From: Atrina japonica
Lineage: Eukaryota; Mollusca; Bivalvia; Pterioida; Pinnidae
DNA: 64,000 nucleotides
Assembly (NCBI GenBank): GCA_030159075.1
Contig: BROG01000031.1
Span: forward strand, 1,767,001 to 1,831,000
Reading direction: 5' to 3'
Shown: positions 2,630-62,512 of the stretch, piece by piece
Layout: the number at the start of each line of letters is the position of its first letter
Numbering within the stretch: the first letter of the stretch is position 1
Translations under genes and position numbers: made by a program
The notes under the pieces: generated by a model
Databases searched by the model: none
The model's input: the letters and a program-made list of their open reading frames with translations, nothing else
Told to the model about the DNA's origin: nothing

Positions 2630-3041
2630 AGATATAACTTAAATTGAACAGACAAAATTTTACTATATTGACGGGTATATAACTTGAACTGAACAGACAA
2701 AATTTGACTATATTGACGGGTATATAACTTGAACTGAACAGATAACAATTTACTATACTGACAGGTATATAACTTGAATTGAACAGACAAAATTTGACTA
2801 TACTGACGGGTATATAACTTAAACTGAACAGACAAAATTTGACTATATTGACTGGTATACAACTTGAACTGAACAGATAACATTTTACTATACTGACGGG
2901 TATATAACTTGAACTGAACAGATAACATTTTACTATACTGACGGGTATATAACTTGAACTGAACAGATAACATTTTACTGTACTGACGGGTATATAACTT
3001 GAACTGAACAGATAACATTTTACTATACTGACGGGTATTTC
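2630..3041. repeat. 45-bp tandem array
   Basis: The unit contains tataacttgaactgaacag and tactatactgacgggta, 45 bp, in about nine copies. Because 45 is a multiple of three, long frames stay open on the minus strand in two registers, each a 15-residue repeat. Open frames in more than one register and the lack of any other gene signal argue against coding. Confidence 0.92.
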
Positions 3042-4388
3042 TAATTTCCCAGAAGTCAAATCTGTTATATGATATCTCCTTATCTATGGTTGCAATAAAA
3101 TGGTTACTGACTTCTCATCATGAGATATCACTGATAAGTCTATAAATCTTTAACACCACAAAAAAAAAATCTGCAAACTAAATGACAAAATTTAAAAAAG
3201 GATCAGCGCAATGATGTTACAAAGAGTACATGACATGTAAATGTATGTCTGCAAAAAGTTTAGATAAAAAAAACATCAAATATGCCAGCACCATCAATAT
3301 GGAGTTTTGGACTTCAGTATTAAATTTTTTCATTTTTACCTGAATGAAAAACAAACTGAAATTCATTCAAACGTTGTTAAAGTATTTACATTTATACCTC
3401 AACCATGTACAAGACTTGATCCCTCATGAGTTTTAACAAAAGTCCTCCATGAGGAATTGTTCACAATGGCAGCTATAAAATATTTATGGTGTATGTGTTG
3501 GTAAACTTCTTTACCTCAATACCAGCCAGAGATAGATGAGGTGCTCTGTGATTATTGATTTCTGCTTACATTGTGCCCAATATTTCTCACTTTATTTCTG
3601 CTTCTGCAGCTTAAATCAATATCATATACTTAACCTTAGCTGCTTCTGTGTGATCTGTGCAGTTTCTTAGTGTCATGTGACTCGACTAAACTTGCAAGAT
3701 TTGTCTCGAAACTATCTCAAAGCTGACACATCTTTTCACTATGTCCTTAGCTTCCATAACATTTAGAAACTTACTCTAGCTGATAAATCTTGATAATGGA
3801 TACACAGTATCATTTTTATAGACATACAAAATTGATAACATCTGTATGTGCTGGTCAAACATAATTCAAACCAGCAAGGCTGTGTTTCCTTTGTAAATAT
3901 TTGATAGGTGGTGAAAAACAAACCATACTTGTTTACCAAACACATACAAATCTAAATTATATAGCTCTGATTGCTAATTAGTTAATACGTTGGTGTCATT
4001 GCAGGTTTTTATGAACAGGACAAGTAAAATGTTGTTATTTATAACACGCCAAGTCCAATGAGCAATTCAATTTAGTGCACACATGTCAAGTTTAATTATG
4101 GCAACCTTTAAGAGCAGGAAACTAATTTTTACTCCTTGTACACTGAAGTGCTCAGAAGTTGATGGTTATCTGAAAACAAATTGTTCTGAAACATACCATG
4201 TTTTATGATCTAAATCAGTCAAAAAGAAGTAAAACACTTCCTTCTATCATTCTAAATGCCACGATTCTTGTAGAGATGTAACAAGTCAGAATTCAATGTC
4301 AATGTTTTAAGATTACAAGAAAAAATATCTATGTGGATCAACTTAGTTTAAAATAACAAATGCCACTGAATTAAAAAAGAGAGAAAAA
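3042..4388. other. AT-rich unique sequence, no gene seen
   Basis: No array, no recognised element and no convincing exon. Several AG acceptor-like sites (for example cttctgcag near 3609) lead directly into stop codons. Confidence 0.5.
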
Positions 4389-14093: not shown

Positions 14094-17000
14094 CACAATG
14101 CCGTATTATGATGCATATGTGCCGTATTATGATGTATGTACCGTATTATGATGTATGTGCCGTATTATGATGTATGTGCCGTATTGTGATGTATGTGCCG
14201 TATTATGATGTATGTGCCGTATTATGATGTATGTGCCATATTATGATGTATGTGCCGTATTATGATGTATACATGTATGTACCGTATAATGATGTATGTT
14301 CCGTATTATACTGTATGTGCCGTATTATACTGTATGTACCGTATTATGATGTATGTACCGTATTATGATGTATGTGCCGTATTATGATGTATATGTGCCG
14401 TATTATGATGTATGTGCCGTATTATGATGTGCCGTATTGTATCGTATTATGATGTATGTGCCGTATTATGATGTATGTACCGTATGTTATGATACCGTAT
14501 GTATGTTCCGTATTATACATGATGTATGTACCGTATTATGTATGTACCGTATGATGTATATGTGCCGTATTATGATGTATGATGTATGTACCATATGTAT
14601 GATGCCATATTATGTGCTGTATTATGATGTATAGTATTATACGTGCCGTATTATGATGTATGTACTGTATTATGATGTATGTATCGTATTATGATGTATG
14701 TGTGTGCCGTATTATATGTATGTGTATGTACCGTATTATATGATGTATATATGTGCCGTATTATGATGTGTATGTGCCGTATTATATGATGCCGTATTTA
14801 TATTCGCCGTATTATGATGATGTATTATGATGTATGCCGTATTATGATGTATGATGTATGTGCCGTATTGTGATGTATGTATTATGATGTATATTCCCCG
14901 CCGTATTATGTATGTGCCGTATGTGCCGTATTATGATGTATATTCGCCGTATTATGATGTATGTGCCGTATTATGATGTATGTACCATATTATGATGTAT
15001 GTGCCCCTATTATGATGTGTATGTACCGTATTATGTATATGTACCATATTATGATGTGCCGTATGTATTGTGATGTATGTACCGTATTATGATGTATATT
15101 CGCCGTATTATGATGTATGTGCCGTATTATGATGTATATGTACCATATTATGATGTATGTGCCCTATTATGATGTATATGTACCGTATTATGATGTATGT
15201 ACCGTATTATGATGTATATGTACCGTATTATGATGTATGTGCCCTATTATGATGTATATGTACCGTATTATGATGTATATGTACCATATTATGATGTATG
15301 TGCCCTATTATGATGTATGTGCCGTATTATGATGTATATTATGATGTACCGTATTATGATGTATATGTACCATATTATGATGTATGTGCCCTATTATGAT
15401 GTATGTACCGTATTATGATGTATTATATGTACCGTATTATGATGTATGTGCCCTATTATGATTATATGATATTATGATGTATGTACCGTATTATATGTAT
15501 ACCGTATTATGATGTGTACCATATTATATTATGATATTATATGTATATGTACCGTATTATGATGTATATGTACCGTATTATATTATGATGATGTATGTGC
15601 CCTATTATGATGTATGATGCCCTATTATGATGTATTATGTACCATATTATGATGTATGTGTATTATGTACCATATTATGATGTACCGTATTATGATGCCC
15701 TATTATGATGATGTATGTGCCCTATGTATGATGTATATGTACCATATGATGTATGTATGTACCCCCGTATTATATGTATGTATATGTGCCCTATTATGTA
15801 CCATATTATGTATGTACCGTATTATGATGCCCTATTATGATGTATGTACCGTGTACCGTATTATGATGTATTATGTATACCGTATTGTGATATACCGTAT
15901 GATGTATGTGCCGTATTATGATGTATATGTGCCCTATTATGATGTATATGTACCGTATTATGATGTATGTATATGTGTACCATATTATGATGTATGTGCC
16001 GTATTATGATGTATATTCGCCGTATTATGATGTATGTGCCGTATTATGATGTATGTACCATATTATGATGTATGTGCCCTATTATGATGTATGTGCCCTA
16101 TTATGATGTATATGTACCGTATTATGATGTATATGTACCATATTATGATGTATGTGCCGTATTATGATGTATGTACCGTATTATGATGTATATGTGCCGT
16201 ATTGTGATGTATGTACCGTATTATGATGTATATGTACCGTATTATGATGTATGTGCCGTATTATGATGTATGTACCGTATTATGATGTATATGTACCATA
16301 TTATGATGTATGTGCCGTATTATGATGTATATGTGCCGTATTATGATGTATGTGCCGTATTATGATGTATGTGCCGTATTATGATGTATATGTACCATAT
16401 TATGATGTATGTACCGTATTATGATGTATATGTACCGTATTATGATGTATGTACCGTATTATGATGTATGTACCGTATTATGATGTATGTGCCGTATTAT
16501 GATGTATGTGCCGTATTATGATGTATATGTACCGTATTATGATGTATGTACCGTATTATGATGTATATGTACCATATTATGATGTATGTGCCCTATTATG
16601 ATGTATGTGCCCTATTATGATGTATATGTACCGTATTATGATGTGTATGTACCGTATTATGATGTATATGTACCGTATTATGATGTATGTATTATGATGT
16701 ATGTGCCCTATGATTATGTACCGTATTATGATGTATATGTGCCCTGATTATGATGTGATGTGCCGTATTGATGATGTATTATGTGCCCTATTATGATGTA
16801 TTATGATGTATGTACCGTAGTATTATGATGTATGATGTATGTACCATGATGTACGATTTCGCCGTATATGATGTATGTGCCCTATGTGCCGTATTATATG
16901 TATATGTACCATATATATGTGCCCTATTATGATGTATATGTACCATATTATGATGTATATGTACCGTATTATGATGTATATGTGCCCTATTATGATGTAT

Positions 17001-17168
17001 ATGTACCGTATTATGATGTATATGTACCATATTATGATGTATGTGCCCTATTATGATGTATATGTACCGTATTATGATGTATATGTACCATATTATGATG
17101 TATGTGCCCTATTATGATGTATGTACCGTATTATGATGTATGTACCGTATTATGATGTATATGTACCG
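14094..17168. repeat. 19/21-bp tandem array, about 3 kb
   Basis: Two interspersed unit types, tatgtgccgtattatgatg (19 bp) and the same with tatatgtaccg (21 bp), with ccgtatt, ccatatt and ccctatt variants. Units are clean at 15,060-15,310 and 15,990-16,660 but fragmented at 14,440-14,880, 15,460-15,900 and 16,690-16,900. The 21-bp type keeps reading frames open (heptapeptide repeats), which explains the apparent open frames. Confidence 0.93.
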
Positions 17169-21259: not shown

Positions 21260-24200
21260 AGAACAGAAAAGATTAAGGAAATTCAAAGTTTGAAAAGGCA
21301 AGATAAAGGAAATGCGAAGCTAGGAACAAACCAGATCAAGGAAAAGCAGAGCCTACAAAAGAGACAGGATCAAGGAAATGAAGACACTGAAATAAATGCA
21401 ATTATGTAGAGCATAGGAACAGGTAAGGAACTGTACTTGTTGGGCTTGGAACAGACATGGTAAAAAAATGCTTTGAATAGACAAGACTATGAAATACAGA
21501 GATTACAACAAAATTAGGTAAAGCAGAGCTTGGAATAGAGAAGACAATGAAATACAGAGACTGGAACTAGATACGGTAATGCAGAGCTTGGAATGGAGAA
21601 GACAATGAAATACAGAGATTGGAACTAGATAAGGTAGTGCAGGGCTTGGAATGGAGAAGACAATGAAATACAGAGATTGGAACTAGATAAGGTAGTGCAG
21701 GGCTTGGAATGGAGGAATAGAGAAGAATGCAAGCTTGAAATACAATGAAATACAGAGACTGGAACTAGATACGGTAATGCAGAGCTTGGAATGGAGAAGA
21801 CAATTACAGAGATGGAACTAGATACGGTAATGCAAGCTTGAAATGGAGAGACTGAAATACAGAACTGGAACTAGATACGGTAATGCAGAGCTTGGAATGG
21901 AGAAGACAATGAAATACAGAGACTGGAACTAGATACGGTAATGCAGAGCTTGGAATGGAGAAAGAGACAATGAAATACAGAGACAGGGCTTGGAACTAGA
22001 TACGAAATACAGAGACAGAGCTTGGTAATGGAGAAGGACAATGAAATACAGAGACTGGAACTAGATACGGTAATGCAGAGCTTGGAATGGAAAGACAATG
22101 GAATACAGAGACTGGAACAGATACGGTAATACAGAGCTTGGACTGGAGAAGACTATGAAATAAGGTAACTAGCAGGTAGTGCAGGGCTTGGAATAGACAA
22201 GAATATGAAATACAGAGACTGGAAGTAGATACGGTAATGCGGAGCTTGGAATGGAGAAGACAATGAAATACAGAGACTGGAACTAGATACGGTAATGCAG
22301 AGCTTGGAATGGAGAAGACAATGAAATACAGAGACTGGAACTAGATACGGTAATGCAGAGCTTGGAATGGAGAAGACAATGAAATACAGAGATTGGAACT
22401 AGATAGAAGGTAGTGAAATACAGAGACTGGAAATAGACAAGGAATAAGACAATGAAATACAGAGACTGGAAGTAGATACGGTAATGCGGAGCTTGGAATG
22501 GAGAAGACAATGAAATACAGAGAACTGATACGAAATGCAGAGCTTGGAATGGAGAAGACAATGAAATACGGTAGATACGGTATGCAGAGCTTGGAATGGA
22601 GAAGACAATGAAATACAGAGACTGGAACTAGATACGGTAATGCAGAGCTTGGAATGGAGAAGACAATGAAATACAGAGACTGCAACTAGATACAGTAATG
22701 CAGAGCTTGGAATGGAGAAGACAATGAAATACAGAGACTGCAACTAGATAAGGTACAGGGCTTGGATAGCAAGAATATGAAATACTTGGAATGGAGAAGA
22801 CAATGAATGGATAAGACAGAAATACAGAGACTGGAACTAGATACGGTAATGCAGAGCTTGGAATGGAGAAGACAATGAAATACAGAGACTGGAACTAGAT
22901 ACGGTAATGCAGAGCTTGGAATGGAGAAGACAATGAAATACAGAGACTGGACTGGATACGGTAATGCTAGGAGAAGACAATGAAATACAGTAATGCATAA
23001 TGCAGAGCTTGGAATGGAGAAGACAATGAAATACAGAGACTGCAACTAGATACGGTAATGCAGAGCTTGGAATGGAGAAGACAATGAAATACAGAGACTG
23101 GAACTAGATACGGTAATGCAGAGCTTGGAATGGAGAAGACAATGAAATACAGAGACTGGAACTAGATACGGTAGTGCAGGGCTTGGAATGGAGAAGACAA
23201 TGAAATACAGAGACTGGAACTAGATAAGGTAGTGCAGGGCTTGGAATAGACAAGAATATGAAATACAGAGACTGGAAGTAGATACGGTAATGCGGAGCTT
23301 GGAATGGAGAAGACAATGAAATACAGAGACTGGAACTAGATACGGTAGATAATGGTAAGACAATGCAGAGCTTGGAATAGGGTAGTGCAGGGCTTGGAAT
23401 AGACAAGAATATGAAATACAGAGACTGGAACTAGATATGGTAATGGGAGAAGACAGAAATACAGAGGCTGGAATGGAGAGCTTGGAATGGAGAAGACAAT
23501 GAAATACAGAGACTGCAACTAGATACGGTAATGCAGAGCTTGGAATGGAGAAGACAATGAAATACAGAGACTGCAACTAGATACGGTAATGCAGAGCTTG
23601 GAATGGAGAAGACAATGAAATACAGAGACTGGAACTAGATACGGTAATGCAGAGCTTGGAATGGGAGATACGACAGCTTGGAATTGAAAAGAACAAAGAG
23701 ACTGGAACTAGATACGGTAATGCAGAGCTTGAAATGGAGAAGACAATGAAATACAGAGACTGGAACTAGATACGGTAAAGCAGAGCTTGGAATAGAGAAG
23801 ACAATGAAATACAGAGACTGGAACTAGATACTGTAATGCAGAGCTTGGAATGGAGAAGACAATGAAATACAGAGACTGGAACTAGATAAGGTAGTGCAGG
23901 GCTTGGAATGGAGAAGACAATGAAATACAGAGACTGGAACTAGATAAGGTAGTGCAGGGCTTGGAATAGACAAGAATATGAAATACAGAGACTGGAAGTA
24001 GATACGGTAATGCAGAGCTTGGAATGGAGAAGACAATGAAATACAGAGGCTGGAACTAGATATGGTAATGCAGAGCTTGGAATGGAGAAGACAATGAAAT
24101 ACAGAGACGGGACTAGGAGACTTGAGATAAATAACGGACGAGAACTAATGCAGAGCTTGGAATAGAGAAGACAATGAAATACAGAGACTGAAATACAGAG

Positions 24201-25180
24201 AGCTTGGAATGGCAATGAAATAGAGACTGGAACGGATAAGGTAATGCAGAGCTTGGAATGGAGAAGACAATGAAATACAGAGACTGGAACTAGATACGGT
24301 AATGCAGAGCTTGGAATGGAGAAGACAATGAAATACAGAGACTGGAACTAGATATGGTAATGCAGAGCTTGGAATGGAGAAGACAATGAAATACAGAGAC
24401 TGCAACTAGATACGGTAGTGCATTTGGCTTGGAATAGAGAGCTTGAAATGGAGAAGATACAATGAAATACAGAGAAGACTGGACAGAGACTAGATACGGT
24501 AATGCAGAGCTTGGAATGGAGAAGACAATGAAATACAGAGACTTGAACTAGATAAGGTAATGCAGAGCAGAGCAATGAAATGGACAGAGAAGACAATAGA
24601 AACGGTACAGAGCTTGGAATGGAGAAGACTGGAAATACAGAGATACGGTAATAGCAGAGCTTGGAATAGAGAAGACAATGAAATACAGAGACTGGAACTA
24701 GATACTGTAATGAAGAGCTTGGAATGGAGAAGACAATGAAATACAGAGACTGGAACTAGATAAGGTAGTGCAGGGCTTGGAGGAGGCTTGGAATACAGAG
24801 ACTGGAACTTGAAGACAATTGAAATAAGACAATGAAATACAGAGACTGGAACTAGATACGGTAATGCAGAGCTTGGAATGGAGAAGACAATGAAATACAG
24901 AGACTGCAACTAGATACAGTAATGCAGAGCTTGGAATGGAGAAGACAATGAAATACAGAGACTGGAACTAGATACACGGTTTGGAATGCAAGAGCTTGGA
25001 AATGGATTTGAACAAGACATGGTAATGCAGAGCTTAGAAATACAGAGACAGGACTGAACTAGATACGGTAGTGCAGAGCTTGGAATAGGAGAAGACAATG
25101 AAATACAGAGACGAGAACTAGATACGGTAATACAGAGCTTGGAATGGAGAAGACATTGAAATACAGAGACTGGAATATAA
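21260..25180. repeat. 58-bp tandem array, left part
   Basis: The unit is gcagagcttggaatggagaa, gacaatgaaatacagagact, ggaactagatacggtaat, 58 bp. Units are diverged at the left edge (21260-21530), regular through much of 21.5-24.4 kb and often truncated or fused (for example 22740-22830, 23440-23490, 24110-24240, 24590-24660). As 58 is not a multiple of three, each unit shifts frame; the many minus-strand open frames of 60-140 codons are repeat artefacts. Confidence 0.93.
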
Positions 25181-26140
25181 TAAATCTGATACCAAAGAAG
25201 AGCTTGGAATGTCAAGGAGAAGACAAATCCGGTAAAAAATGGACAGAGATCTGGAAACTAGATAAGGGATAGGTGCATGGATGAGTAAGCTTGGAATCAG
25301 AGAAGAAGTCAATGAAATACAGAGACTGTGAACCTAGATACAATGTAATGACGTTCTCAGAACCGCTTGGAACTGGACATTTTCAAGTGACAATGAAATA
25401 CAGAGACTGCAACTAGATACACCGTAATGCAGAACTTTGACAATGGAAACGAAGTTTTCATATGAAATTTTATCAGAGGAGTTTACTGTATAATGAAATC
25501 TAGATACGTTGTAATCTGCAGATCGGATCTTGTGAATGGAGAAGACAATGAAATACAGAGACGGGAACTAGATACGCTGTAATCGCAGAGCTTAGTTGCC
25601 AATGGAGAAGACAATGAAGTATACAGAGCTTGACGAGAACTTTAGATACGGTAAAGCATTGACTATGTATGAAAATTGTCATTATTAATTGAGAAGACAA
25701 TGAAATTACAGGACACCGACTTTTTCTTCTTTTGATTCACTAGAATAAGTCTGTAATGAAAAAGAGCTTCGGAATACAGGAGCAAAATGACAGTTTGTTG
25801 AAAGACCATGTCTCCGACCATTACAATACAGAGATTCCAGCATATAGATAAGGTAGTGCAGAATCAGAGGGTGTTGGACAAAATAGAGAAGCCCAATCAA
25901 TGAAATACAGAGACCACCTTTAGGAACTAAAGATACTGCTAAAAAAATTTCTTTTAATTTTTATGTGGAAATTGGTAAAGGAGAAAGACAAATGAAACTG
26001 TGAATTCAGAGACTGGTATGCCTTCAAATTTTCTAAAAGCTGTTTAGAATTTTTTAGAGCTTGATTTAACACCGTTTCTGGAGAAGAACTAATGAAATAC
26101 AGAGGCTGTCAATATCTGGAACTAGATAAAGGTAGTGCAA
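25181..26140. other. Fine mosaic of the 58-bp array and the downstream RT element
   Basis: Short blocks (10-45 bp) of array unit alternate with blocks matching 27490-28745, in the same order and orientation as in that region. Examples of exact shared 20-mers are tatgaaaattgtcattatta (about 25669 and 28149), gaaagaccatgtctccgacc (25800 and 28323) and gccttcaaattttctaaaag (26020 and 28609). The 1.26 kb of element sequence is compressed into about 0.95 kb with losses. This looks like two aligned sequences merged base by base. Open frames in it (for example 25706-25900 minus) are not meaningful. Confidence 0.85.
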
Positions 26141-27482
26141 GGGCTTGGAATGGAGAAGACAATGAAATACAGAGACTGCAACTAGATACAGGTAATAAGA
26201 TGCAGAGACTACAGAGAATGGAGCAAGCTTGGAATGAATGAAATACAGAGACTGGAACTAGATACGGTAATGCAGAGCTTGGAATGGAGAAGACAATGAA
26301 ATACAGAGACGGGAACTAGATACGGTAATGCAGAGCTTGAAATGGAGAAGACAATGAAATACAGAGACGAGAACTAGATACGGTAAAGCAGAGCTTGGAA
26401 TAGAGAAGACAATGAAATACAGAGACTGGAACTAGATACTGAAATAAGAGACTGGAACTAGAGCTTGCATGGAGAAGAGACAATGAAATACAGAGATTGG
26501 AACTAGATAAGGTAGTGCAGGGCTTGGAATAGAGAAGACAATGAAATACAGAGACTGGAACTAGATACTGTAATGAAGAGCTTGGAATGGAGAAGACAAT
26601 GAAATACAGAGACTGGAACTAGATACTGTAATGAAGAGCTTGGAATGGAGAAGACAATGAAATACAGAGATTGGAACTAGATAAGGTAGTGCAGGGCTTG
26701 GAATAGAGAAGACAATGAAATACAGAGACTGGAACTAGATACTGTAATGAAGAGCTTGGAATGGAGAAGACAATGAAATACAGAGACTGGAACTAGATAA
26801 GGTAATGCAGAGCTTGGAATGGAGAAGACAATGAAATACAGAGACTGGAACTAGATACGGTAATGCAGAGCTTGGAATGGAGAAGACAATGAAATACAGA
26901 GACTGCAACTAGATACGGTAATGCAGAGCTTGGAATGGAGAAGACAATGAAATACAGAGATTGGAACTAGATACGGTAATGCAGAGCTTGGAATGGAGAA
27001 GACAATGAAATACAGAGACTGGAACTAGATATGGTAATGCAGAGCTTGGAATGGAGAAGACAATGAAATACAGAGATTGGAACTAGATACGGTAATGCAG
27101 AGCTTGGAATGGAGAAGACAATGAAATACAGAGACTGGAACTTGATACGGTAATGCAGAGCTTGGAATGGAGAAGACACTGAAATACAGAGACTGGAACT
27201 AGATACGGTAATGCAGAGCTTGGAATGGAGAAGACAATGAAATACAGAGACTGGAACTAGATAAGGTAGTGCAGGGCTTGGAATAGACAAGAATATGAAA
27301 TACAGAGATTTGAACAAGATATGGTAATGCAGAGCTTAGAATATAGAAGACAATGAAATACAGAGACTGGAACTAGATAAGGTAGTGCAGGGCTTGGAAT
27401 AGACAAGAATATAGAATATAGAGATTGGAACTACATAAGGTAATACAGAGCTTGGAATGGACAAGACATTGAAATACAGAGA
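26141..27482. repeat. 58-bp tandem array, right part (clean)
   Basis: Same unit as at 21.3-25.2 kb, with regular units at 26480-27300. Subtypes with gatactgtaatgaagagc and gataaggtagtgcagggc alternate in the first half (26480-26800). The last units before 27482 change to the tagacaagaatatgaaatac form that dominates beyond the RT element. Confidence 0.93.
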
Positions 27483-28760
27483 CTGGAATATAAAAAATCT
27501 CAGATACCAAAGTATATATCAATAGAATGTCAAGGACACAGATACAAATCCGGTAAAAATGGACAAACACAGACCTCTGGAAACCAAGAGGTGGGATCAG
27601 GTGCCATGGATGAGTAAGCATCCCCTGTCGACCAGTCACACCCACCGTTAGTCCACAGTCAAGTCCAATGAAATATGTGAGGTGTGAATCCTCGTCACAA
27701 TTGGTACAGACGTCTCAGCAACCGCCAACAAAAAGGCAACTCAACATTTCACTCAGTGAAACAGGGTAATTGCAAACAAGACTATTATACTGACCGTAAA
27801 ACTTGCGGAACATTGACATTAAACGCGGTTTTCGATATCCCTGTGTCAATAATTTATCAGTGAGGAGTTTACCTCTGTATATGAAATCTTCATATGTTGT
27901 ACACGCACTGGCATATCGGATCATTTGTGAAATATAAACTCCATAAGTGGTTGACTCAGGGATATTACTACTTAAATGCGGGAAATTTACGATGGGAAAG
28001 CTGAAATCGTCACATTTGTTGTATAGCTTAGTTGCCAATTTCCTGTCTGTGTCTATATTAAGTAAAATGTCTAAGTATGAAGCGTATGTGCTTGATTCTG
28101 TTGTATCTTTAATTTCTAGTTTGCTGGGATATATCGCATTGACATATGTATGAAAATTGTCATTATTAATTGACAAAATGTCGTCGATATATCCAAATGT
28201 TAAATTATAGGACACCGCTAACTTTTTCTTCTTTTGATTCAGCAGTTTCTGAATGAAGTCTGCTTCGTATGAAAAAAGAAACAGGTCGGCCAATACAGGA
28301 GCACAAATGCTGACAGTTTGTTGAAAGACCATGTCTCCGACCATTACAAATATATTGTCTATTAGAAATTCCAGCATATTTTTTATATCAATTTAAGTGT
28401 ATTTATGTGTAGAATCAGAGTAGTGTTGGACAAAATAAGTATCCTGATAGCCAATCACTAGATATTTAAATTTTTGGGTACCACCTTTAGTGAAAAAAAG
28501 AGTTGTCAATGATGCTAAAAAAATTTCTTTTAATTTTTTATGTGGAATTGTGTAAAGAGTAGAGAAGTCGTATGTATTGAAACTGTGAATTCAAGAAAAA
28601 TTGTGTGCCTTCAAATTTTCTAAAAGCTGTTTAGAATTTTTTAGCATCCACATCTGATTTACACCGTTTCTGGAATAAGCAACTATACAATATTATTGAA
28701 GTTCCTCCTTAATGGCTGTCAATATCTTGGTAAGGAGTAAAGATAAAGGTTTGGTAGAAC
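27483..28760 (-). mobile_element. Penelope-like (or related) retroelement fragment inside the array
   Basis: A 1.28-kb insertion between units of the tandem array, coding on the minus strand. It comprises a partial RT region (27715-28746) and about 230 bp of downstream element sequence (27483-27714) that recurs at 8217-8433. The 5' end of the element is missing; the break at about 28750 joins directly to array sequence. No GIY-YIG endonuclease, terminal repeats or target-site duplication could be identified. The assignment rests on the RT sequence. Confidence 0.7.
27715..28746 (-). pseudogene. Reverse transcriptase remnant, Penelope-like type
   Basis: One minus-strand frame runs from about 28746 to 27715 with stops at 28693, 28591 and 28393; the last 220 codons (28377 to 27715) are open. 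In order it shows NQMWMLKNSKQLLE, then YDFSTLYT (RT motif A, catalytic Asp kept, one residue short after it), MLEFLIDNIFVM, CAPVLADLFLFSYEADF, FGYIDDILSINN (catalytic YIDD at 28180-28191), then IKDTTESS, YASYLDILLNID, NFPHLSSNIPES, TTYGVYISQMIRYASAC and FRKFYGQY. This is the C-terminal half of an RT abundant in fish, cnidarian and mollusc genomes, usually filed with Penelope-like elements (family knowledge). The conserved glycine-containing loop expected just before CAP is missing, a loss of about six residues. With that and the stops the copy is dead. Confidence 0.85.
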
Positions 28761-28761
28761 A

Positions 28762-29870
28762 AGAGCTTGGAATAGACAAGGCTATGAAATACAGAGATTG
28801 GCACTAGATAAGGTAATGCAGAGCTTGGAATACAGAAGACTGAAATACAGAGATTGGCACTAGATAAGGTAATGCAGAGCTTGGAATAAACAAGATTGAA
28901 ATACAGAGATTGGAACTAGATAAGGTATTGCAGAGCTTGGAATACACAAGACTGAAATACAGAGATTGGAACTAGATAAGGTAATGCAGAGCTTGGAATA
29001 GACAAGAATATGAAATACAGAGATTGGAAATAGATAAGGTAATGCAGAACTTGGAATAAACAAGACTGAAATATAGAAATTGGAACTAGATAAGGTATTG
29101 CAGAGCTTGTAATAGACAATAATATGAAATACAGAGATTGGAACTAGATAAGGTAATGCAGAGCTTGGAATAAACAAGACTGAAATACAGAGATTGGAAC
29201 TAGATAAGGTAATGCGCAGCTTGGAATACACAAGACTGAAATACAGAGATTGGAACTAGATAAGGTAATGCGCAGCTTGGAATACACAAGACTGAAATAC
29301 AGAGATTGGAACTAGATACGGTAATGTAGAGCTTGGAATACACAAGACTGAAATACAGAGATTGGAACTAGATAAGGTAGTGCAGAGCTTGGAATACACA
29401 AGACTGAAATACAGAGATTGGAACTAGATAAGGTAGAGCAGAGCTAGGAAAAGACAAGAATATATAATACAGAGATTGGAACTAGATAACGTAATGCAGA
29501 ACTTGGAATACACAAGACTGAAATACAGAGATTGGAACTAGATAAGGTAGTGCAGAGCTTGGAATAGACAAGAATATGAAATACAGAGATTAGAACTAGA
29601 TAACGTAATGCAGAGCTTGGAATACACAAGACTGAAATATAGAAATTGGAACTAGATAAGGTAGTGCAGAGCTTGGAATACACAAGACTGAAATACAGAG
29701 ATTGGATCTAGATAAGGTAGTGCAGAGCTTGGAATACACAAGACTATGAAATACAAAGATTTGAACTTGATAAGATAATTCAGAATTTGGAATAGACAAG
29801 GCCAGGACATTCAGAGCATTGAACCAGATAAGATAATGCAGATTTTTGGGACAGATAAAGAAATTTAGAG
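28762..29870. repeat. 56-bp tandem array, relative of the 58-bp array
   Basis: The unit is gcagagcttggaatacacaa, gactgaaatacagagattgg, aactagataaggtagt, about 56 bp, with tagacaagaatatgaaatac variants. It is the same family as 21.3-27.5 kb but a distinct subtype, separated from it by the RT insertion. Units decay towards the right edge (29,750-29,870). Confidence 0.92.
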
Positions 29871-58165: not shown

Positions 58166-58169
58166 GTAG

Positions 58170-61100
58170 ATTATTGTGTCTGGACTTATATAGTACTTGG
58201 TAATAGAGTATTGTGTCTGGACTTATATAAGACTTGGCAACAGAGTATTGTGTCTGGACTTATATAGTACTTGGTAATAGAGTATTGTGTCTGAACTTAT
58301 GTAGTACTTGGTAATAGAGTATTGTGTCTGGACTTATGTAGTACTTGGTAATAGAGTATTGTGTCTCTGGACTTATGTAGTACTTGGTAATAGAGTATTG
58401 TGTCTGGACTTATGTAGTACTTGGTAATAGAGTATTGTGTCTGAACTTATGTAGTACTTGGTAATAGAGTATTGTGTCTGAACTTATGTAGTACTTGGTA
58501 ATAGAGTATTGTGTCTGGACTTATGTAGTACTTGGTAATAGAGTATTGTGTCTGGACTTATGTAGTACTTGGTAATAGAGTATTGTGTCTGGACTTATGT
58601 AGTACTTGGTAATAGAGTATTGTGTCTGGACTTATGTAGTACTGGTAATAGAGTATTGTGTCTGGACTTATGTAGTACTTGGTAATAGAGTATTGTGTCT
58701 GGACTTATGTAGTACTTGGTAATAGAGTATTGTGTCTGGACTTATGTAGTACTTGGTAATAGAGTATTGTGTCTGGACTTATGTAGTACTTGGTAATAGA
58801 GTATTGTGTCTGGACTTATGTAGTACTTGGTAATAGAGTATTGTGTCTGGACTTATGTAGTACTGTGTAATAGAGTATTGTGTCTGGACTTATGTAGTAC
58901 TTGGTAATAGAGTATTGTGTCTGGACTTATGTAGTACTTGGTAATAGAGTATTGTGTCTGGACTTATGTAGTACTTGGTAATAGAGTATTGTGTCTGGAC
59001 TTATGTAGTATAATAGAGTATTGTGTCTGGACTTATGTAGTACTTGGTAATAGAGTATTGTGTCTGGACTTATGTAGTACTTGGTAATAGAGTATTGTGT
59101 CTGGACTTATGTAGTACTTGGTAATGAGTATTGTGTCTGGACTTATGTAGTACTTGGTAAATAGAGTATTGTGTCTGGACTTATGTAGTACTTGGTAATA
59201 GAGTATTGTGTCTGGACTTATGTAGTACTTGGTAATAGAGTATTGTGTCTGGACTTATGTAGGACTTGGTAATAGAGTATTGTGTCTGGACTTATGTAGG
59301 ACTTGGTAATAGAGTATTGTGTCTGGACTTATGTAGGACTTGGTAATAGAGTATTGTGTCTGGACTTATGTAGGACTTGGTAATAGAGTATTGTGTCTGG
59401 ACTTATGTAGGACTTGGTAATAGAGTATTGTGTCTGGACTTATGTAGGACTTGGTAATAGAGTATTGTGTCTGGACTTATGTTGGTAATAGAGTATTGTG
59501 TCTGGACTTATGTAGGACTTGGTAATAGAGTATTGTGTCTGGACTTATGTAGTACTTGGTAATAGAGTATTGTGTCTGGACTTATGTAGTACTTGGTAAT
59601 AGAGTATTGTGTCTGGACTTATGTAGTACTTGGTAATAGAGTATTGTGTCTGGACTTATGTAGTACTTGGTAATAGAGTATTGTGTCTGGACTTATGTAG
59701 TACTTGGTAATAGAGTATTGTGTCTGGACTTATGTAGTACTTGGTAATAGAGTATTGTGTCTGGACTTATGTAGTACTTGGTAATAGAGTATTGTGTCTG
59801 GACTTATGTAGTACTTGGTAATAGAGTATTGTGTCTGGACTTATGTAGTACTTGGTAATAGAGTATTGTGTCTGGACTTATGTAGCACTTGGTAATAGAG
59901 TATTGTGTCTGGACTTATGTAGCACTTGGTAATAGAGTATTGTGTCTGGACTTATGTAGCACTTGGTAATAGAGTATTGTGTCTGGACTTATGTAGCACT
60001 TGGTAATAGAGTATTGTGTCTGGACTTATGTAGCACTTGGTAATAGAGTATTGTGTCTGGACTTATGTAGCACTTGGTAATAGAGTATTGTGTCTGGACT
60101 TATGTAGCACTTGGTAATAGAGTATTGTGTCTGGACTTATGTAGCACTTGGTAATAGAGTATTGTGTCTGGACTTATGAGTAATAGAGTATTGTGTCTGG
60201 ACTTATGTAGCACTTGGTAATAGAGTATTGTGTCTGGACTTATGTAGCACTTGGTAATAGAGTATTGTGTCTGGACTTATGTAGTACTTGGTAATAGAGT
60301 ATTGTGTCTGGACTTATGTAGTACTTGGTAATAGAGTATTGTGTCTGGACTTATGTAGTACTTGGTAATAGAGTATTGTGTCTGGACTTATGTAGTACTT
60401 GGTAATAGAGTATTGTGTCTGGACTTATGTAGTACTTGGTAATAGAGTATTGTGTCTGGACTTATGTAGTACTTGGTAATAGAGTATTGTGTCTGGACTT
60501 ATGTAGTACTTGGTAATAGAGTATTGTGTCTGGACTTATGTAGTACTTGGTAATAGAGTATTGTGTCTGGACTTATGTAGGACTTGGTAATAGAGTATTG
60601 TGTCTGGACTTATGTAGGACTTGGTAATAGAGTATTGTGTCTGGACTTATGTAGTACTTGGTAATAGAGTATTGTGTCTGGGACTTATGTAGTACTTGGT
60701 AATAATAGTATTGTGTCTGGACTTATGTAGTACTTGGTAATAGAGTATTGTGTCTGGACTTATATAGTACTTGGTAATAGAGTATTGTGTCTGGACTTAT
60801 ATAGTACTTGGTAATAGAGTATTGTGTCTGGACTTATATAGGACTTGGTAATAGAGTATTGTGTCTGGACTTATATAGGACTTGGTAATAGAGTATTGTG
60901 TCTGGACTTATGTAGGACTTGGTAATAGAGTATTGTGTCTGGACTTATGTAGGACTTGGTAATAGAGTATTGTGTCTGGACTTATGTAGTACTTGGTAAT
61001 AGAGTATTGTGTCTGGACTTATATAGTACTTGGTAATAGAGTATTGTGTCTGGACTTATGTAGTACTTGGTAATAGAGTATTGTGTCTGGACTTATATAG

Positions 61101-62512
61101 TACTTGGTAATAGAGTATTGTGTCTGGACTTATATAGGACTTGGTAATAGAGTATTGTGTCTGGACTTATGTAGTACTTGGTAATAGAGTATTGTGTCTG
61201 GACTTATGTAGTACTTGGTAATAGAGTATTGTGTCTGGACTTATGTAGTACTTGGTAATAGAGTATTGTGTCTGGACTTATGTAGTACTTGGTAATAGAG
61301 TATTGTGTCTGGACTTATGTAGTACTTGGTAATAGAGTATTGTGTCTGGACTTATGTAGTACTTGGTAATAGAGTATTGTTTTCTGGACTTATGTAGTAC
61401 TTGGTAATAGAGTATTGTGTCTGGGTATATAGTACTTGGTAATAGAGTATTGTGTCTGGACTTATATAGTACTTGGTAATAGAGTATTGTGTCTGGACTT
61501 ATATCTAGTACTTGGTAATAGAGTATTGTGTCTGGACTTATGTAGTACTTGGTAATAGAGTATTGTGTCTGGACTTATGTAGTACTTGGTAATAGAGTAT
61601 TGTGTCTGGACTTATGTAGTACTTGGTAATAGAGTATTGTGTCTGGACTTATGTAGTACTTGGTAATGTATTGTGTCTGGACTTATGTAGTACTTGGTAA
61701 TAGAGTATTGTGTCTGGACTTATGTAGTACTTGGTAATAGAGTATTGTGTCTGGACTTATATTACTTGGTAATAGAGTATTGTGTCTGGACTTATGTATT
61801 ACTTGGTAATAGAGTATTGTGTCTGGACTTATGTAGTACTTGGTAATAGAGTATTGTGTCTGGACTTATGTAGTACTTGGTAATAGAGTATTGTGTCTGG
61901 ACTTATGTAGTACTTGGTAATAGAGTATTGTGTCTGGACTTATGTAGTACTTGGTAATAGAGTGTCTGGACTTATGTAGTACTTGGTAATAGAGTATTGT
62001 GTCTGGACTTATGTAGTACTTGGTAATAGAGTATTGTGTCTGGACTTATGTAGTACTTGGTAATAGAGTATTGTGTCTGGACTTATGTAGTACTTGGTAA
62101 TAGAGTATTGTGTCTGGACTTATGTAGTACTTGGTAATAGAGTATTGTGTCTGGACTTATGTAGTACTTGGTAATAGAGTATTGTGTCTGGACTTATGTA
62201 GTACTTGGTAATAGAGTATTGTGTCTGGACTTATGTAGTACTTGGTAATAGAGTATTGTGTCTGGACTTATGTAGTACTTGGTAATAGAGTATTGTGTCT
62301 GGACTTATGTAGTACTTGGTAATAGAGTATTGTGTCTGGACTTATGTAGTACTTGGTAATAGAGTATTGTGTCTGGACTTATGTAGTACTTGGTAATAGA
62401 GTATTGTGTCTGGACTTATGTAGTACTTGGTAATAGAGTATTGTGTCTGGACTTATGTAGTACTTGGTAATAGAGTATTGTGTCTGGACTTATGTAGTAC
62501 TTGGTAATAGGA
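58170..62512. repeat. 37-bp tandem array, about 4.3 kb
   Basis: The unit is tctggacttatgtagtactt + ggtaatagagtattgtg, 37 bp, in about 117 copies with very low divergence. Variants come in blocks: gtaggac at about 59,255-59,520, gtagcac at about 59,885-60,265, and a mix of atagtac and ataggac with gta forms at about 60,760-61,140. A few units are truncated (for example 58,998-59,020, 59,475, 60,175, 61,960). No open frame of length because 37 is not a multiple of three. Confidence 0.97.

Follow-up and report, generated by a model that had tools for sequence, protein, structure and literature searches.

A 64,000-nucleotide window of the Atrina japonica genome assembly (contig BROG01000031.1; the genome holding it comprises 832 Mb in 2347 contigs) contains a stretch of almost 1 kb in which letters of a 58-bp tandem array alternate, at very short spacing, with letters of a reverse transcriptase (RT) element lying further to the right. 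Does this weave exist as a DNA molecule, or was it written by the assembly process? The features on which the answer depends are listed here in window coordinates.

~21.47-29.84 kb: tandem array overall, with 58-bp units to 27487 and 56-bp units from 28762, in two parts split by the 1.27-kb fragment.
21470-25005, plus strand: 58-bp tandem array, irregular, with many within-unit deletions (TRF and deletion count in 200-bp bins).
25006-25180, plus strand: left shoulder, array units with rare words that also occur in the left flank of the RT fragment itself, 27308-27488 (shared-word search).
25181-26140, plus strand: mosaic, array and RT-fragment letters interleaved, each in order (two-parent decoding).
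26141-26240, plus strand: right shoulder, irregular array (bin deletion count and 14-mer comparison).
26241-27487, plus strand: mostly regular 58-bp array, the array parent (TRF and bin deletion count).
27488-28761, minus strand: degenerate RT retroelement fragment of 1.27 kb, the other parent and the mosaic donor (family, ORF and private-variant comparison).
27715-28377, minus strand: 220-aa ORF in the RT fragment.
28762-29842, plus strand: 56-bp array variant, the right flank of the RT fragment (TRF), not detected in the mosaic by 14-mer comparison.

The tandem array

The 58-bp array differs in quality on the two sides of the mosaic. TRF gave 73% match and 12% indels for 21742-24809, and 86% match and 2% indels for 26237-27488. 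Within-unit deletions were also counted in 200-bp bins, with allowed letters derived from 26242-27300 itself, so that this stretch is favoured for substitutions. Deletion events were present in 17 of the 18 bins starting at 21440-24840 (two of those 17 with one event each), and four of the five bins over 26240-27239 were free of them, the exception being bin 26440 (26440-26639). The bin from 27240 is disturbed again. Within-unit deletions are common in the array left of the mosaic at 21640-25200, unlike in most of 26240-27240. The irregular array at 21470-25005 is possibly consensus damage too, and such damage may cover a longer stretch than 25181-26140, including 21640-25200; alternatively, the array there may be irregular by nature.

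Tandem arrays of many different units are frequent throughout the window (1-64000), for which the repeat finder returned 115 rows, overlapping rows counted. The 19/40-bp array at 14101-17160 (75% matches, 14% indels) has an irregularity resembling that of the 58-bp array and might be another consensus-damaged array. In contrast to it, matches reach 97% in the 37-bp array at 58167-62510.

The RT fragment and its family

The RT fragment belongs to a family present at no fewer than 40 places in the genome, the window copy counted (40 candidates were scored). Its 220-aa ORF had no match above the cut-off in Pfam, and 1838 of 1973 candidate proteins matched it at E ≤ 0.001. PF00078, the reverse-transcriptase domain, is present in 9 of the 120 proteins listed among these matches. 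A related copy (L003) carries a 341-aa ORF with a YIDD motif, as is typical of reverse transcriptases. The name "RT element" therefore holds, owing to the protein matches with PF00078 and the motif in L003. The window copy is approximately 7% divergent from seven other copies, which are approximately 3-5% apart mutually, and 66 columns are private to it in this comparison; the fragment at 27488-28761 thus represents an older or separate lineage within its family.

Three places that contain additional pieces of the element at low identity were read in part, in search of a second mosaic. C688 contains ordinary diverged fragments, C431 an inverted diverged fragment, and C160 a diverged fragment split by a 26-bp array with clean edges. 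No letter-scale weave was found in the parts read of these three places, and the weave in the window is, by that comparison, not simply the usual look of old copies or arrays in this genome. Diverged RT fragments at L027 782-965, 1230-1547, and 2500-3001, which are 77-80% identical to a piece of L003, lie immediately upstream of another copy (3002-4366, 94.5% identical); this arrangement apparently consists of nested or neighbouring insertions of the same RT family. In L029, a diverged RT copy is split into two pieces, and the tandem array of 26-bp units between them (1562-1729, 95% regular, with clean edges) is perhaps a young array that arose inside an element.

Structure of the mosaic

An earlier note, made from the letters of the window, had described a fine mosaic of the 58-bp array with the RT element in which order is preserved, and decoding bears this out. 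We used an order-free two-source decoder, in which each base comes either from the RT fragment (at any position and in any order) or from the array. It resolved 25181-26140 into 81 blocks. RT blocks of at least 10 bp numbered 20, with a total of 432 bases and a longest block of 56 bp, and their positions in the fragment ascended at 19 of 19 steps. As control sources, the reverse complement of the RT fragment yielded 3 blocks (30 bases) and its plain reversal a single block of 12 bases. Sixty dinucleotide shuffles gave a mean of 42 and a maximum of 94 bases, and 17 other stretches of the window a maximum of 98 bases. Four array stretches used as decoder targets contained no RT block of 10 bp or more.

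When both parents were constrained to their own order, every one of the 960 bases found a parent, 600 in the RT fragment and 360 in the array; the path switches 43 times and contains neither a mismatch nor an unexplained insertion. This model skips parent bases cheaply (394 RT and 165 array bases were skipped), so the comparison of scores outweighs the perfect fit: the mosaic scored 811.7. Among the controls, 32 shuffles had a mean of 745.9 (sd 2.0, maximum 752.1), the reverse complement scored 747.3, and eight piece-permutations of the RT source ranged over 745-759. Both the order-free and the order-constrained decoding describe an order-preserving blend of two parents.

The exact 20-mer that had been noted as common to the mosaic and the RT element is present at 25800 and at 28323 and nowhere else in the window. 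Two descriptive details needed revision. The block size of 10-45 bp applies to part of the blocks, but many are shorter and one reaches 56 bp. The extent of 25181-26140 stands for the core, but mixing seems to begin further left, with rare array words from approximately 25006, and fades by approximately 26240.

The left shoulder is where these rare words lie. Array words directly left of the RT fragment, at 27308, 27332, and 27466, have their only other occurrences in the window at 25006, 25030, and 25153. Words present only twice tie 25006-25166 to the RT left flank at offsets of 2302-2313. For 14-mers present only twice in the window, the offset is 2302 at 25023 and rises stepwise until it is 2610 at 26104, a growth that would follow if the blend loses fragment bases along its course. 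Two links further left fall off this offset line (24786 at 4037 and 24797 at 2333). Among control pairs, which include ones overlapping the observed pair, the 9 shared words per 180-bp stretch were reached in 1085 of 151480, and the 12 left-flank words over 480 bp in 1540 of 31375; an earlier set of 300 random pairs had a mean of 1.1 shared words and a highest value of 15. The left flank of the donor seems to be included in the blend, and because control pairs reach the same counts, the flank words taken alone are moderate evidence of this.

Donor of the RT letters

Private substitutions of the window copy identify the donor. Fifteen of them fall within the 20 blocks. At 14 of these the mosaic agrees with the window copy, at 0 with the seven compared relatives, and the remaining one shows a letter found in neither. 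The mosaic has 59 different 20-mers in common with the window copy and 14-30 with each other copy. The agreement at 14 of 15 private substitutions indicates that the donor is the window's own RT insertion. Both parents thus come from the same locus, as the left-flank words also suggest with moderate strength.

A second, old RT copy that lay in the array and decayed through mutation and indels would be colinear with nearly the whole element, as the mosaic is. However, the diverged copy at L027 2500-3001, which is 76.6% identical, does not alternate with array units, and an independently decayed copy is at odds with a mosaic that has both the private variants of the window copy and array letters in phase order. 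We rejected this candidate on the private variants, the phase-ordered array letters, and the contrast with the diverged copy, and its probability is close to nil.

Absence of homology between the parents

The two parents (fragment 27500-28740 and array 26240-27480) share no 11-mer, one 10-mer, and five 9-mers, and blastn between them returned no alignment at E ≤ 0.1. Switching by an artefact needs no parental homology and is compatible with these values. Gene conversion needs homologous parents at tract boundaries, and such homology was not found here.

These values bear on whether the stretch is real sequence, built up in dozens of tracts by gene conversion or template switching between the RT fragment and the array. 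In favour of such tracts stands the assembled sequence itself, as their only support. Against them, order is maintained in both parents across the 43 switches, conversion has no homology to use between parents without any common 11-mer, and the block statistics agree with a consensus process (see below). In addition, none of the 40 candidates scored across the genome gave a full-length match to the mosaic at another place. Gene conversion and template switching were rejected as candidates on the lack of shared words between the parents, and we consider it very improbable that the tracts are real. Equally improbable is a real allele in which the RT insertion and the array are interwoven by dozens of homology-free, order-keeping template switches; to our knowledge, no repair or replication mode works in this way.

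Consensus calling on simulated mixed reads

We wrote a small partial-order consensus routine and applied it to reads simulated from the RT fragment with its flanks (27250-28840) and from the array starting at 26240. In a first set of eight runs, weaves appeared at mixtures of 6:6 (3 of 3) and 5:7 (1 of 1). A 7:5 mixture gave nearly pure fragment, a 4:8 mixture nearly pure array, and the two unmixed controls one parent only. A second set of 120 runs combined three scoring schemes, two error rates, five mixtures, and four seeds. A consensus qualified as a mosaic if its fragment blocks of 10 bp or longer numbered at least 8 and if at least 5 array blocks of 8 bp or longer lay between them. At 13% error, every run gave a mosaic at 12:12 and at 11:13 (12 of 12 each), 7 of 12 did so at 13:11, and none of the 24 did so at 8:16 or 16:8. 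With the error rate at 1%, the 12:12 mixture produced 5 mosaics in 12 runs, and the remaining mixtures produced none in 48. Over both error rates, the 8:16 and 16:8 mixtures gave the pattern in 0 of 48 runs.

The real mosaic was compared using the same statistics. It has 20 RT blocks, 432 bases, a longest block of 56, 22 array blocks, a span of 934, and 19 of 19 ascending steps. The averages of the three cells at 11:13 and 13% error, which were chosen as best fitting from 30 settings after all had been seen, were 17.8-21.5 RT blocks, 341-415 bases, a longest block of 42-48, 21.5-25 array blocks, a span of 924-961 bases, and 96-99% ascending steps. The simulated consensus breaks order at some steps, and the routine differs from the assembler used for the contig. 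These runs show that consensus calling on noisy reads mixed at approximately 1:1 suffices to produce a weave, which is a statement of sufficiency and not of process identity. They point to noisy long reads and a roughly equal depth of two versions. Two alleles of a diploid would supply such equal depth naturally, since a mixture near 1:1 is needed.

The same runs bear on a one-allele form of the artefact, in which reads from the RT locus without a unique anchor landed some 40 array units left of their true place and were blended with correctly placed reads. This form is a sub-case of the broader artefact reading. It would account for a donor at the same locus, whose left flank is probably included, and it agrees with the fact that a second haplotype was not found among the scored candidates. 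However, simulated mosaics arose only near 1:1, a ratio natural for two alleles of equal depth and not for occasional misplacement, and we regard the one-allele form as unlikely.

A proposed origin from two array-length alleles

The earlier note had suggested a consensus error that merged reads or haplotypes with and without the element. This suggestion agrees with the kept order, the donor from the same locus, the lack of usable homology, and the match of the simulation to the block statistics. It also fits the surroundings, where the array at 21.6-25.2 kb is irregular and most of 26.24-27.24 kb is clean. On the evidence of the letters, the mosaic is almost certainly a consensus artefact of some such kind and not a real DNA molecule, and a version with two alleles of different array length is the probable one.

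We propose the following course for the two-allele version. The animal would be a diploid with one RT insertion, to the left of which the 58-bp array is shorter in one putative allele than in the other. In the short allele, the RT fragment would lie approximately 2.3 kb (approximately 40 units) nearer the left flank; the other allele would be the long one. Reads, presumably those of the short allele, would have been laid over the long allele, and in a noisy pile-up of roughly equal depth the RT fragment would be force-aligned to array sequence. Consensus letters would then come from whichever allele had the heavier local path, with a switch every few to few tens of bases. If the gap that reconciles the alleles was put after the RT fragment and not before it, mixing would end at the right end of the fragment. 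The irregular array to the left and the mostly clean array beyond the mosaic fit a zone of approximately 4.6 kb over which two array-length alleles were overlaid out of register, with its end at the fragment end of the short allele.

Two observations concern the flanks. Reads of the short allele should run into the 56-bp array, yet no 14-mers present only twice in the window link 26100-26400 to the RT right flank at 28720-28900. The right flank of a misplaced allele was thus not seen in the blend; its presence is not strictly required if an alignment gap sits there, and we propose that the gap placed after the fragment explains the missing words. Full-length matches to the two flank queries were confined to the window among the 40 candidates scored per query. 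That neither flank occurs on a separate contig among these candidates is as in a collapsed or purged assembly, of which a second allele on its own contig is not required. The proposed origin suggests, without proof, a polymorphic array-length difference of approximately 2.3 kb at this locus.

Comparison with known systems

Gene conversion mosaics in repeated genes consist of alternating in-order blocks from two parents, and gene conversion requires that the parents be homologous. The mosaic described here resembles them in its alternating blocks, its two parents, and its order. It differs in that its parents have no common 11-mer.

A closer likeness is found among collapsed assemblies. Such assemblies contain a mosaic consensus that perhaps matches no allele (PMC7545148, PMC8445201). 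According to PMC8445201, truncated ORFs in a collapsed assembly go back to wrong read alignments and to internal repeats whose length differs between the alleles. As in the collapsed-haplotype consensus of long-read assemblies (PMC8445201, PMC7545148), two alleles would have been merged here into a result that matches neither. Unlike in those cases, the alleles at this locus would be dissimilar over approximately 1 kb, element against array, and the blending would therefore show, beyond indels, as a weave at the scale of single letters.

The mosaic is very probably not a real feature but an error of the same kind as those known from collapsed assemblies, in a form that is unusually easy to see. 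Left in place, the weave would lead astray anyone who annotates repeats, calls structural variants, or argues for conversion at the locus. Its signature consists of two dissimilar parents, both in order, with switches every few to few tens of bases and no homology, and it can be used to detect merged-allele consensus errors of this kind in noisy long-read assemblies.
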